From contig CALYRQ010000001.1 of the NCBI GenBank assembly GCA_945483375.1, forward strand, positions 1-22,648: a stretch of DNA of 22,648 bases. Reading direction: 5' to 3'. Of the stretch, positions 6,054 to 22,051 are shown in pieces. The notes under the pieces are model-generated. The model had not been told where the DNA came from, made no database searches, and saw nothing but the letters and a program-made list of their open reading frames with translations. The first letter of the stretch is position 1. Every line of letters begins with the position of its first letter. The position numbers and the translations under genes were made by a program. Origin of the DNA: an uncultured Elusimicrobia bacterium. Lineage in GTDB: Bacteria > Elusimicrobiota > Elusimicrobia > Elusimicrobiales > Elusimicrobiaceae.

Positions 6054-6085
6054 TTGTATTGTTTTTTTTTTTTGATAACATAGAG
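6054..6085 (+). promoter_or_regulatory. Poly-T/GATAA block upstream of prepilin 1
   Basis: TTGTATTG, then twelve T (6062-6073), then GATAACATAGAG. Nearly the same block stands upstream of the other two prepilin genes (13973 and 22022). Taking TTGTAT as -35 and TAACAT (6076-6081) as -10, the spacer is 16 bp and consists mostly of the T-run. Promoter function is inferred from position and conservation. The alternative is a conserved repeat boundary. Confidence 0.5.
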
Positions 6086-6175
6086 TCATTCCGAGGAGTT
6101 GTTGCCCAGAATCTCTCACTGATGCTTTTGTTCGTCAAAAGCGGTAGATTCTGAGCAGAAACCTCTCAGAATGAC
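6085..6175. repeat. REP-like palindromic element, copy A
   Basis: A 91-bp sequence bounded by GTCATTC (6085-6091) and its inverse GAATGAC (6169-6175). The 30-bp arms match at about 22 of 30 positions, including CAGAATCT and AGATTCTG inside. It lies between the poly-T block and the SD of prepilin 1, so it should be transcribed as a long hairpin leader. It is the same family as the copy at 6216-6302. Confidence 0.7.
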
Positions 6176-6197
6176 TTTTTTGATAGGAGAAAAGAAA

Positions 6198-6827
6198 ATG
6201 AAAGGTTTTTGTGGTGTCATTCTGAATTTATTTCAGAATCCATATCAAATGGAAACAATACCTCATAAACTGCCTGGCTTCCGGATCCATGGCCGGAATG
6301 ACGACAGAAAGAGCGGTTTTACCTTAATCGAGCTATTGGTTGTCGTTTTAATCATTGGTATTTTGTCCTCGGTCGCATTGCCGCAGTATACGCGCGCTGT
6401 TGCGCGGGCGCGTACGGCGGAAGCGCTGTCCGTTATCCGCTCCATTTCGCAGGCGGCGGAAACCTATGTGATGGAAACGGGTTCCTGGCCTGAGTCGTTT
6501 GACGATTTGAGTGTTACTCCTTCAGGGGAATTGGCAACATACAAAAAAGATCATGACAAAATAATAGGCCGCTATTTCAGTTTTGTATTGATTGACGGAC
6601 GTGTGGATGTGGGTTCGCTCTTCAGGGAAGATTTTCCTTCTTTCTTGTATGTTTCGGATTTGGCCTCGAGCATGAAATCGCCCGTTCCCGGCAAGCATTT
6701 GTTTTGTTATTATGTGGAAAAAGGCACTGCCGCAGATCAAAAAATGGAACAAATGTGTAAGGCAATGGGCGGCGGAGAGCGCCATGCCGTTAACGGCGGA
6801 AAATCCATTTGGTTCGCTTTAGATTAA
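6198..6827 (+). CDS. Type IV prepilin-like protein 1, leader enlarged by a repeat
   Basis: A 209-residue protein. The start at 6198 is chosen for AGGAG 8 bp upstream; an ATG at 6171 has no SD and lies in a repeat, and an ATG at 6249 lacks an SD. The prepilin peptidase site is [19 protein letters not shown] with Gly at -1 and Glu at +5, then SSVALPQYTRAVARARTAEA. The leader is 40 residues instead of the usual 5-20 because residues 5-41 come from a REP-like palindrome. The C-terminal domain has a YVMETGSWPESFDDLSV segment and two cysteines near the end (Cys-Tyr-Tyr and MEQMCKAMGG), perhaps a disulfide. It would be an inner-membrane prepilin or minor pilin, N-methylated after cleavage by PilD. 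It is a solitary gene with its own upstream block and a terminator shared with ligA. Whether the long leader still permits cleavage is unknown. Confidence 0.85.
   Translation: MKGFCGVILNLFQNPYQMETIPHKLPGFRIHGRNDDRKSGFTLIELLVVVLIIGILSSVALPQYTRAVARARTAEALSVIRSISQAAETYVMETGSWPESFDDLSVTPSGELATYKKDHDKIIGRYFSFVLIDGRVDVGSLFREDFPSFLYVSDLASSMKSPVPGKHLFCYYVEKGTAADQKMEQMCKAMGGGERHAVNGGKSIWFALD
6216..6302. repeat. REP-like palindromic element, copy B, inside the prepilin leader
   Basis: An 87-bp element ending in GTCATTC (6216-6222) and GAATGAC (6296-6302). It is translated in frame as VILNLFQNP...PGFRIHGRND, a peptide type known to annotators as the translation of dispersed palindromic repeats. It is flanked by a GGTTTT direct repeat at 6204-6209 and 6315-6320, 111 bp apart (37 codons), which suggests insertion with target duplication. 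Confidence 0.75.
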
Positions 6828-6863
6828 TAAAAATCCCCGAACATTAGCCCGGGGATTTTTATT
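6826..6863. terminator. Bidirectional terminator between prepilin 1 and ligA
   Basis: A perfect 14-bp inverted repeat, AATAAAAATCCCCG at 6826-6839 and CGGGGATTTTTATT at 6850-6863, gives a GC stem with T-runs in both directions. It serves two convergent genes and overlaps both gene ends. Confidence 0.9.
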
Positions 6864-8851
6864 TAAGCGGCGGTTTTTCCTATCAGTTTTAAAAATTCTT
6901 CTTCGGTTAGTACGGGTACGCCGAGTTCATTTGCTTTTTTCAGTTTGCTTCCTGCCGCTTCCCCGGCCACTACATAAGACGTCTTTTTTGATACGCTTCC
7001 ACTGGCTTTTCCACCGTATTCTTTGGCGAGCAGCTCCGCTTCGCTGCGCGTCATGGTTTTAAGTTCCCCGGTAAATACGAGTGTCTTTCCGTCCAGGATA
7101 TTGCCGGAGAGTTCTTTTTTAGGCTGTGTGAAATTAAGCCCTGCCGCACGCAACCGTTCGATTTGTTCCAGCGCGCGCGGACTGCGGAAAAAATCGTAAA
7201 TGCTTTGGGAAACCTTCTCTCCCACTTCGCGTACGCTTTGGAGTTCTTCCAAAGGGGCGTCTTTTAACGCGTCAAGCGTGCGGAAACGGTCCGCCAAAAT
7301 TTCGGCCGTTTTTTCGCCCACGAAGGCGATCCCGAGCGCAAATAAAAGTTTGGAAAGCGGTTTTTGTTTGCTGGCTTCAATAGAGTCCAATAGATTTTGC
7401 GCTTTTTTATCTTTAAAATTTTCCAGATTAAGTAAATGTAAAAACGTAAGGGCATAGATGTCGGCAAAGTCAGACACATATTTGTTTTCCAGTAACTGGT
7501 CCATCACTACGTCGCCCAGGCCGTCAATATCCATGGCGTTGCGGGACGCAAAGTGCAGTAGCCGCGCGCGCAGTTGGGCCGGGCAGGAAGGATTAATGCA
7601 GTAATAGCCTACTTCGTCCTGCTCTTTGTAAACGGGTTCGCCGCAGGACGGGCACTCGGCCGGCGGGAGCACTTCCTGCGTGCCTTTGTGTTCGGCCACT
7701 TTTACCACTTTGGGGATAACTTCTCCCGCGCGTTCGATAATTACCGTGTCGCCCACGCGCACGCCCAGGCGGTTGATTTCGTCGAAGTTGTGCAGGGTGG
7801 CGTTGGAAATAATGACGCCCGCGCACGGGACGGGTTCCAGCTCTGCCACCGGGGTGATAATACCGCTTCTGCCTACGGAAAAAAGAATGTTGTTTACCGT
7901 GGTGGTGGCTTGCGGGGCGGGGTATTTAAAAGCAATCGCCCAGCGCGGGCTTTTGGCCGTAACGCCTAAAATGCGCTGGTATTCAAAACGGTTTACTTTG
8001 ACGACGAGCCCGTCCACATCAAACGGTAAATTGTGGCGGGAGGATTCAAATTGATTGTAGAAACGGATTACTTCGCTTATAAGCGTTGTCTTCGTGCGCA
8101 CCGGGCAGATGGAGAATCCCCACGCACGGCATTGGTCGATAAATCCGCTGAAGCTGTCCGCCGTGATGTTCCCCGCACCGAAGGAATGGGCAAAGAATTT
8201 AAGCGGCCGGGCGGCGGTCACCACCGGGTCTTTTTGGCGCAGGGATCCGGCGGCGGCGTTGCGCGTGTTGGCAAACGTGTTTTCGGCTTTTAAAATTTGG
8301 GTGGTGTTTAACTCTTCCAGATCTTTTTTATCTAAATACACTTCCCCGCGGATTTCCAAAATTCCGGCTGGTGCACCGGGCAGTTCGTGCGGAATGTTTT
8401 TAATGGTGCGGACGTTGGCGGTAATGTCTTCGCCAATTTTTCCGTCGCCGCGGCTGGCGGCCTGGATGAGTTTCCCGTCCAAATAGGTAAGCGAGCAGGA
8501 CACCCCGTCTATTTTGCCTTCTACCACCATTTCAAAATCTTCGCGCTGGAGGGTTTTGGCGGCGCGGTCGTACCATTCGCGGATTTCGTCGGGCGAATAC
8601 GAATTGTCCAAAGACATCATCGCCGTTGCGTGTTTGACCGGCGTAAATTGCCCCGCTACTTTGCCGCCCACCCGCTGGGTAGGTGAATTTTTGGTGCGGT
8701 ATTGGGGGTACCGGTCTTCTAAATCTTTTAATTGTTTGTAAAGTTCGTCGTACTGCGTGTCGGACAATATGGGATTGTCCAAATTATAGTAAAGGTTGTT
8801 ATGGTAATTGACCAGCTTTTTCAGCCGTTCAATCTCTTCTTTCGGGTGCAT
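6863..8851 (-). CDS. ligA: NAD-dependent DNA ligase LigA
   Basis: A 662-residue protein of normal length. It seals nicks in duplex DNA in replication and repair using NAD+. The domain order is complete: an N-terminal Ia region with [18 protein letters not shown] (NMN binding); the adenylation domain with catalytic Lys113 in EGKIDG and later [10 protein letters not shown]; an OB fold; a zinc finger with CPSC...CINPSCP; helix-hairpin-helix repeats ([47 protein letters not shown]); and a BRCT domain at the end ([21 protein letters not shown]). It starts 9 bp after the nusB stop on the same strand, so the two are probably co-transcribed. No good SD is visible before the ATG, so translation may depend on coupling with nusB. 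Nothing is missing. Confidence 0.98.
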
Positions 8852-8860
8852 ATAACGTGG

Positions 8861-21687: not shown

Positions 21688-21866
21688 TTGCTTGTAAGGG
21701 CCAACAATTTGCTAAATTCTATTATCTTATGCGTCCCTCAGCCTTGACGTGGCTACAGCCACGCCGAGTGGCGGCCCGCAGGGTGCTGACTAGCCCGCAC
21801 AATCTAAAGCGAATTTAACAAATCAGGCAATCTTCTATTGTGTTATTCTAATCTGCACGGCATTTG
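21688..21866. other. Gene-free stretch between the duplicated modules
   Basis: No gene is supported here. It contains a CGTGGC, TACA, GCCACG hairpin (21748-21763) and TGGCGGCCCGCAGGGT (21769-21784), which matches 14 of 16 bases at 14050-14065 in the prepilin 2 leader. A TATTAT (21720-21725) could be a -10 box for a small RNA, but nothing else supports this. Confidence 0.35.
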
Positions 21867-21904
21867 AATAACAACTGATGTTAACTTGCAATTTGCGCAC
21901 AACG
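21867..21904. repeat. Direct repeat copy 2
   Basis: The exact 21-bp match to 21624-21644 occupies 21867-21887, then similar GCAATTTGCGC. It lies 243 bp downstream of copy 1 and again leads into a strong hairpin, but no gene ends here. Confidence 0.75.
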
Positions 21905-21932
21905 GATAAGAAAGAGATTTCTTATCCGTTGT
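21899..21932 (+). terminator. Second terminator-like hairpin, orphan
   Basis: ACAACGGATAAG (21899-21910) and CTTATCCGTTGT (21921-21932), perfect 12-bp stem, 10-nt loop, then TGCTTATTTTG. The stem differs from the first hairpin, but position and tail (TTGCTT) match it. Confidence 0.65.
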
Positions 21933-21963
21933 TGCTTATTTTGTCCGCACTTTCCCAGTCGTC

Positions 21964-21987
21964 ATTCCCGAGGTTGTAGTCGGGAAT
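21964..21987. repeat. REP-like hairpin (ATTCCCGA family) before prepilin 3
   Basis: ATTCCCGA (21964-21971), loop GGTTGTAG, TCGGGAAT (21980-21987), preceded by GTC to give the shared GTCATTC start. A perfect 8-bp stem in the same family as 14035-14072. Confidence 0.6.
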
Positions 21988-22021
21988 CTTCCGCTCATTT
22001 GTCTTTGTTGTTTTGCAGGCC

Positions 22022-22051
22022 TTGACTCGTTTTTTTTTTGATAAATTGGGA
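22022..22051 (+). promoter_or_regulatory. Poly-T/GATAA block of prepilin 3, directly before the ATG
   Basis: TTGACTCG, ten T (22030-22039), then GATAAATTGGGA. With TTGACT as -35 and TAAATT (22042-22047) as -10, the spacer is 14 bp and the ATG at 22054 lies 6 nt after the -10, so the mRNA may be leaderless or nearly so. GGGA could instead be a short SD. Confidence 0.5.

Follow-up and report, generated by a model that had tools for sequence, protein, structure and literature searches.

Putative promoters with homopolymer spacers precede dispersed type IV pilin genes in Elusimicrobiaceae, and the polarity of their runs follows replication

The stretch of DNA analysed here, referred to as the window, comprises 22,648 nucleotides (positions 1 to 22,648, forward strand) of contig CALYRQ010000001.1 from an uncultured Elusimicrobia bacterium of the family Elusimicrobiaceae (assembly GCA_945483375.1). 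It carries three prepilin genes, each preceded by a block in which a run of T lies between a -35-like and a -10-like box (Table 1). Judged from its sequence, the block is very probably a sigma70-like promoter with a homopolymer spacer. Across the related genomes that were compared, pilin genes co-directional with replication have T-runs and head-on pilin genes have A-runs; of 121 pilin promoters with a run, 119 have T on the G-rich strand. That this replication-linked polarity is real is regarded as highly likely, and it is the new and unexpected part of the finding; both the polarity and the mirror-image A-run promoters were seen outside the window.

Table 1. Promoter blocks and prepilin genes of the window, with positions counted from its first base.
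Feature	Position	Strand	Sequence	Details
Promoter block 1	6054..6085	+	TTGTATTG-T12-GATAACATAGAG	-35 TTGTAT at 6054-6059; T12 at 6062-6073; extended -10 TGnTAACAT with hexamer at 6076-6081; spacer 16 bp
Prepilin gene 1	6171..6827	+		218 aa counted from first ATG; residues 46-70 match PF07963
Promoter block 2	13973..14002	+	TTGCCCCG-T10-GATAACATGGGG	-35 TTGCCC at 13973-13978; T10 at 13981-13990; -10 TAACAT at 13993-13998; spacer 14 bp
Prepilin gene 2	14131..14586	+		151 aa; PF07963
Promoter block 3	22022..22051	+	TTGACTCG-T10-GATAAATTGGGA	-35 TTGACT at 22022-22027; T10 at 22030-22039; -10 TAAATT at 22042-22047; spacer 14 bp
Prepilin gene 3	22054..22557	+		167 aa; PF07963; PF16732 (ComP_DUS) also above cut-off

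The three blocks were found where the initial annotation had placed them (starting at 6054, 13973 and 22022), and its consensus fits all three with the exception of the last base of block 3 (22051), which is A and not G. The spacers of 16, 14 and 14 bp that it had proposed hold if the -10 box is read as TANNNT. Its statement that every block precedes a prepilin gene was borne out, all three genes scoring above the PF07963 cut-off, as was its statement that the block is confined to these sites of the window: T8GATAA with at most one mismatch occurs three times, against a mean of 0.32 in shuffled sequence, and none of 100 shuffles reached three. The transcript of gene 3 is predicted to start at the A of its ATG at 22054 (leaderless-like), and sequence relatives of this gene were found among solved pilins. 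A terminator of the upstream gene was rejected as the source of the run: at 13973 the upstream open reading frame (ORF) points away, and a TANNNT box follows the run.

The window's own genome (G000; 1,102,612 bases, 201 contigs, 76% complete) was searched with the pattern TTGNNNNGT7-N(0-10)-GATAA, the reversed pattern serving as control, and pilins were called by a GFTLIE-type motif or by a match to the PF07963 (N_methyl) profile. The pattern gave 30 matches and the control none; 22 of the 30 precede a prepilin gene (21 recognised by motif, the one on C26 by PF07963), and the arrangement seen in the window extends well beyond it. Four further matches run into a contig end 29-39 nt downstream, and four have no prepilin in the available sequence. 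Of the latter, the C14 block is followed by a contig end after 399 nt, the C116 block by no pilin, the T12 block of C71 (G000:C71:64; L016, L078) by a 364-aa open frame that looks secreted and is not a pilin, and the T9 run of C128 by a lipoprotein-like ORF. The block form ending in GATANNNT was matched 42 times, again with no control match. Chance or AT-richness was accordingly excluded as the origin of the blocks, the reversed controls in G000 being zero and the window shuffles staying below the observed count.

PF07963 was matched 57 times in G000, and a block stands upstream of 37 of these matches (34 with GATA[AC], and three, on C38, C148 and C171, with GATAT). The 20 matches lacking a block include 12 where the contig ends no more than 183 nt upstream and eight with more than 600 nt of sequence there. 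Of the 57, all but two fall within open frames of at least 129 aa; the others are those on C26 (51 aa, stop) and C33 (75 aa, contig end). The block is mostly pilin-specific.

The anatomy of the block was read from 41 distinct site strings of G000, a few of which are possibly the same site seen at two locus edges. They share TTG and then four variable positions, the last of them C or T, followed by G, the T-run, GATA, three variable bases and T. The T at -7 is present in 41/41 strings, the search pattern having required only GATA; the three middle bases of the -10 box are variable (0.44-0.85 bits), and A stands at +1 in 38/41, which is a purine and suggestive of the transcription start. The TTG of the -35 box was imposed by the pattern; its fourth base is A in 27/41 and its fifth base C in 24/41, often giving TTGACN, and in the G011 and G004 forms the box is TTGACA or TTGACT. 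TGn precedes the -10 box in the G000 form and is missing from the A-form of G011. A TTGACA-like -35 box, TANNNT with an upstream TG, and a modal spacer of 16 bp (within 16-18 bp) are the features of a sigma70-type promoter with an extended -10 element.

Genome G011 uses two layouts, TTGACATCG-T11-GCTACATT and TTGACAAATC-A11-CGATAAT. Together with the layout of G000, these leave 4, 5 and 5 non-run bases in the spacer and have modal runs of 12, 11 and 11, so that the spacer is 16 bp each time. Because three layouts with different flanks and runs all arrive at 16 bp, run length appears to be set by spacing; this convergence is the strongest argument on promoter anatomy and, with the invariant T at -7, supports the earlier proposal that the run fills the gap between the -35 and -10 boxes. 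The 16-bp spacer was counted in 31/44 rows of G000 (some of which may repeat one site at a locus edge), in 14/17 of G071, and in 29/32 T-form and 18/19 A-form promoters of G011. In the whole-genome lists of G011, 60/64 A-form sites have A11 and 82 of the 100 listed among 116 T-form sites have T11; in G004, A11 is present in 18/32 A-form sites of that layout (36 matches).

In many promoters of G071, G021 and G016, as in block 3, the A of the ATG is the +1 base, and the corresponding mRNAs may be leaderless. A dyad, GATAAATTTTGC-N6-GCAAAATTTATC, surrounds the start codon in promoters of the GATAAATTTT type (window 22040-22070 and promoters of G071, G021 and G016). The T-run, together with a short A-run, often continues it, and some changes are matched on both arms; the dyad is imperfect in G012, G021 and G024, and the G011 promoters examined show no evident dyad.

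For the comparison of run polarity with replication, the leading strand was marked by GC skew (the G-rich strand) in place of mapped origins. The comparison genomes are mostly draft assemblies, from which homopolymer lengths were also read, and pilins and promoters are related copies, so the counts are not independent. Runs of at least 9 nt were counted in G011, G021 and G071, and runs of at least 7 nt in G015, G024, G016, G004 and the window. T was on the G-rich strand at 76/77 promoters in the stretches of G011, G021 and G071 (five more, in zones of near-zero skew, were excluded), at 17/17 in G015 (17 of whose 38 pilins bear a run), and at 26/27 in G024:C10, G016:C3, three G004 contigs and the window. 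Restriction to the genomes that have both forms gave 79/80 (G011 48/49, G015 17/17, G004 14/14). On G011:C34, all 14 run-bearing pilins of the plus strand have an A-run and all 15 of the minus strand a T-run, one further plus-strand pilin having no run; in G011 as a whole (64 A-form sites; 100 of 116 T-form sites listed), both forms are listed for 22 contigs, and in every one of these the two occupy opposite strands. Fisher's exact test on the G011 and G015 pilins gave p = 1.5e-10, which exaggerates the certainty, the copies being related. Among the pilins counted for the comparison of upstream regions below, those in the stretches of G021, G012, G024:C1 and G071 are all co-directional, and their polarity amounts to gene orientation. 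The run-less pilins of G015 lie on both strands.

Polarity also switches within contigs, as on G011:C38. It switches between 15 and 87 kb on G015:C6, where the skew turns near 70 kb; between 15 and 120 kb on G016:C3, where the skew turns near 60 kb; and between 185 and 265 kb on G071:C1, where the skew turns at 225 kb. The contigs G016:C3 and G071:C1 were chosen as tests of the predicted agreement. A crude motif scan around the skew switches of G015:C6 and G071:C1 turned up no dnaA gene, so these two switches are placed by GC skew alone. With a match in these three contigs, run polarity at pilins may serve as a marker of skew switches.

More general strand effects were examined as causes of the polarity. 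A general homopolymer strand bias was ruled out: among runs of 6-8 nt away from pilins, the G-rich strand holds 2112 of T and 2159 of A. Runs of at least 9 nt that were classed as 'other' comprise 6 of T and 4 of A, and at least three of the former are pilin blocks missed by the motif test. When upstream regions were scored for runs of at least 7 nt, T-runs and A-runs were present in 82 and 9 of the 111 regions of co-directional pilins and in 2 and 25 of the 37 regions of head-on pilins; for other genes the corresponding values were 43 and 24 of 309 (co-directional) and 25 and 22 of 247 (head-on). A general link between promoter runs and gene orientation is weak in those other genes, and an overall co-orientation of genes with replication is discounted by the same set (309 co-directional against 247 head-on genes with intergenic upstream regions). 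Inversion of a run changes whether a given strand is copied as leading or lagging strand, and a promoter is blind to fork direction, which makes the polarity indirect evidence that slippage matters. It may keep a useful slippage rate or avoid an intolerable one. The chief alternative for the polarity is a rule of insertion relative to the fork, which the mirrored geometry of A-form and T-form cassettes makes less likely.

Run lengths cluster. In G000 (n=35) there are 25 runs of T12, 4 of T11, 3 of T13, 2 of T10 and 1 of T9, and T12 makes up 52/59 runs in G007, 15/21 in G012, 16/31 in G021 and 12/26 in G024. The runs are pure in 135/137 matches, the pattern having left the letters after the seventh T free. 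Orthologues were compared among 80 run-bearing pilins of G012, G021 and G024 (reciprocal-best matches, at least 70% protein identity): run length differs in 6/8 pairs (six orthologue groups), the flanking boxes are letter-identical in four of the six pairs that differ, and one of the two equal-length pairs lacks upstream synteny. Same-locus length variation was thus found between species, where it fits slippage around a selected length. The variability proposed in the initial annotation is upheld by these differences but qualified by a modal length from which several genomes depart little. Mutation balanced by selection near a working length seems to describe the runs better than free drift. 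The loci of the metagenome-assembled genomes (MAGs) JAUNWB and CAMECJ (12/12 T12) were dropped as evidence on length; having been found with an exact T12 pattern, they make the argument circular.

The pilin genes themselves turn over. In the stretches of G012 and G021 that were examined, 16 pilin loci had both flanks matched; the same pilin was present at four, a different pilin at three, and a recognised pilin in one genome only at nine. At three of these nine, a pilin that escaped recognition could lie in a gap of 0.8-1.1 kb in the other genome. Across G012, G021 and G024, the flanks are 72-95% identical. Between L091 (JAUNWB) and L067 (G000:C38), the T12 block with its upstream flank and the downstream terminator are kept and the pilin between them differs, the exchanged segment starting just after the block. 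At G012:C1:44297 (L122), the host gene's ~45-bp terminator is present twice, once on either side of a ~600-bp pilin cassette; the cassette is absent from G024 and from G021, where the site (C6 near 226.9 kb) has one terminator and no pilin. The ends of the inserts vary from case to case among the 12 pairs examined. As read from these alignments, the intergenic sites are conserved, and the gain, loss and replacement of pilin genes at them is fast.

PF07963 was matched in 61/61 genomes of the genus, from 22 to at least 112 times in one search; a second search gave at least 150 matches in G011 (238 candidates), 145 in G004 and 125 in G015. A T12-type block is present in 40/61 of these genomes. 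In a draw of 198 genomes from the phylum, which overlaps the genus set in many genomes, it was found in 30, which belong to two of the 64 genera sampled, both in one family, and in none of the 145 sampled phylum genomes outside that family. In the second of these genera, G087 and G094 have 26 matches each. A looser pattern gave 1-3 matches in 3/24 genomes of a sister family (G042, G053 and G060), with two control matches in G042 as well. The exact T12 block is common to G000 and the MAGs JAUNWB01 and CAMECJ01 (titled Elusimicrobia or Elusimicrobiales), whose loci match those of G000 mostly with 87-91% identity over the long matches, two shorter ones reaching 96 and 98%. As a separate observation, G030, G031, G064, G068 and G080 have 53-75 prepilin matches, only 0-2 T12-type blocks and no A-form matches; in G030 and G031, the spacer of some promoters is more loosely T-rich.

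The explanation that is rated best overall, and considered rather likely, takes the block as the promoter that serves scattered type IV pilin genes, a repertoire switched by slippage, with run polarity fixed to replication. The mostly homopolymeric spacer would make run length set the distance between the -35 and -10 boxes, and slippage during replication would add or remove bases and so shift single pilins between spacings. The working spacing would be 16-17 bp (T12/T13 or T11/A11), with promoters weak or silent at 14 bp or less. Each pilin could then be switched or tuned on its own, while genes would also be replaced at conserved intergenic sites. The T strand would be kept on the G-rich, presumed leading strand through a fork-direction dependence of slippage in long A/T runs, selection keeping a workable rate. 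An effect on transcription, switching within populations and the cause of the polarity are inferred steps of this scheme; that the switching is adaptive is given slightly better than an even chance on the sequence evidence. Somewhat less than an even chance is given to the more specific idea of a replication-polarised contingency system, in which the A- and T-forms would be a mirror-image switch whose slipping strand always faces the fork in the same way.

Several observations weigh against this explanation. No T12-type block was found in 21/61 genus genomes; five of the 21 have the A-form, and the 16 with neither form may in some cases hold layouts missed by the patterns. The 16-bp spacer is not dominant in the stretches examined of G021 (7/19), G012 (4/7), G024 (1/6) and G015 (5/14; A-form 3/7, T-form 2/7), and G015, G021 and G024 often have shorter ones. 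Two runs are exceptions to the polarity, one in a promoter at 53.8 kb of G011:C38, which lies 4-11 kb from the polarity switch and near the skew switch, the other a T9 run in G024:C10. The T excess seen at pilins is also present, in mild form, at other co-directional genes (43 against 24). In T-only genomes polarity equals gene orientation, which leaves G011, G015 and G004, with their related copies, as the independent tests. The evidence on run length is between species and comes from assemblies rather than from reads, strains or transcripts. Mismatch repair appears to be in place: MutS1 was matched in 61/61 genus genomes (58 above cut-off, the three below being partial or split matches), and loss of mismatch repair was ruled out on this basis, MutL not having been searched for.

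That MutS1 is present, and that the 16-bp mode is strong in G000, G007, G011 and G071, would also suit a fixed promoter element, in which stiff poly(dA:dT) is simply a good spacer and the variants are off-optimum or decaying, with no adaptive switching. This reading is considered unlikely, though it is the weightiest of the rivals: run length differs in three quarters of the orthologue pairs, a 16-bp spacer needs no pure run, eight G000 pilins with more than 600 nt of upstream sequence lack one, and no reason is offered for A-runs at head-on and T-runs at co-directional genes. The turnover of the genes suggests another role for the run, as part of a replication-polar site of cassette entry or recombination with one orientation of entry relative to the fork, its promoter role being secondary. 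Fast gain, loss and replacement at conserved sites, the L091/L067 exchange that starts directly behind the T12 block, and the pairing of an empty site with a filled one in which the ~45-bp terminator is doubled all point this way. The geometry of A-form and T-form cassettes is mirrored, however, and one insertion rule would not yield the same run polarity; moreover, the G012:C1 insert starts upstream of the block and not at it, insert ends vary, the run-less G015 pilins occupy both strands, and the 16-bp rule indicates promoter spacing. An entry site is accordingly judged improbable. Slightly less credence still is given to a dedicated sigma factor, activator or repressor that would read the block, the run being part of its binding site, and control all pilins together. 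A single block on dozens of genes would be expected of such a regulator, and the dyad over the start codon, which many promoters of G071 and some related ones have and which shows some changes matched on both arms, could be its target. Against this, TTGNNN, TGnTANNNT and the +1 A match ordinary sigma70, so that the boxes can be accounted for by the usual factor; G012, G021 and G024 have the dyad only in imperfect form, the G011 promoters examined show no evident one, and a factor acting in trans leaves the mirrored A- and T-forms unexplained.

Slippage-switched promoters of pilins, the preferred explanation, have partial parallels in other bacteria. In the placement and purity of the run and in its length change between species, the block resembles a homopolymer-spacer contingency promoter. 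In the Mycoplasma hyorhinis vlp (poly-A) and Neisseria porA-type promoters, a homopolymer between or beside the -35 and -10 boxes sets the expression of a surface protein; few genes are concerned there, and the runs are of A or of G/C. We know of no link of run polarity to fork direction in these systems, and to our knowledge homopolymer-spacer promoters have been described for one gene or small family at a time. Integron cassette arrays hold many exchangeable genes under an orientation rule relative to replication; unlike them, the pilins described here are dispersed, have their own promoter and showed no common site at both ends (no search was made for attC or an integrase). The genome paper on Elusimicrobium minutum may mention pilins. 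Among the published systems considered, the nearest is sabA of Helicobacter pylori, a surface adhesin gene that likewise has a poly-T tract in its promoter region, the length of which varies within strains by slipped-strand mispairing (PMC2715451); as far as the available part of that report goes, sabA is one gene, the effect of run length on transcription is left open, and neither a mirror A-form nor a replication polarity is described. In the pilin antigenic variation of Neisseria, a strand-specific G4 element upstream of pilE, whose orientation matters, acts in recombination that feeds one expressed locus from silent pilS copies (PMC3547852). Most pilin copies here are open frames, many have a promoter to themselves, and an A/T run inside that promoter takes the place of the G4 element; a system of the pilE/pilS type was rejected on the G000 counts (55/57 matches in open frames of at least 129 aa, 37/57 with their own block). 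The mutability of GnT hotspots, a short homopolymer-based motif, can depend strongly on orientation to leading-strand replication; in that work, on Pseudomonas and Salmonella, the tracts are of G and the mutations are T-to-G substitutions, not changes in the length of A/T runs (PMC12344412). Pilin genes and competence are mentioned for Endomicrobium in a further report (PMC8809381). Among the papers listed from the open-licence PMC literature on Elusimicrobiota pilins, Elusimicrobium minutum genomes, homopolymer slippage with leading or lagging strand and phase variation, and homopolymeric promoter spacers, no title or start of an abstract describes the pilin expansion or the polarity.

With homopolymer-spacer promoters on dozens of pilins per genome of 1-2 Mb, within one bacterial family, the pilus would become a combinatorial surface. 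Run polarity coupled to replication amounts to a natural experiment in many copies, by which the stability of A/T homopolymers on the leading and lagging strands becomes testable. If the idea of a replication-polarised contingency system is true, the dependence of A/T-run slippage on fork direction would be powerful enough to determine the promoter that a gene may have, and very large sets of pilins would be individually switchable.

Some further sequence features were recorded. At 738-1187 of the window (+ strand), a pilin-like ORF keeps an LPQY segment and has neither the GFTLIE processing motif nor a run block; it is possibly a decayed pilin. Palindromic repeats of the GTCATTC...GAATC type lie in the predicted ORF leader upstream of GFTLIE, both at 6210-6310 of the window and in many G011 pilin leaders. 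Upstream of block 3, at 21624-21890, AATAACAACTGATGTTAACTT is present twice, ~245 bp apart. Near-identical tandem repeats with GCCTGCCCCCGGCAAG stand upstream of a pilin promoter at ~186.3-186.8 kb of G024:C1, and similar GC-rich pieces precede some of the G000 blocks.

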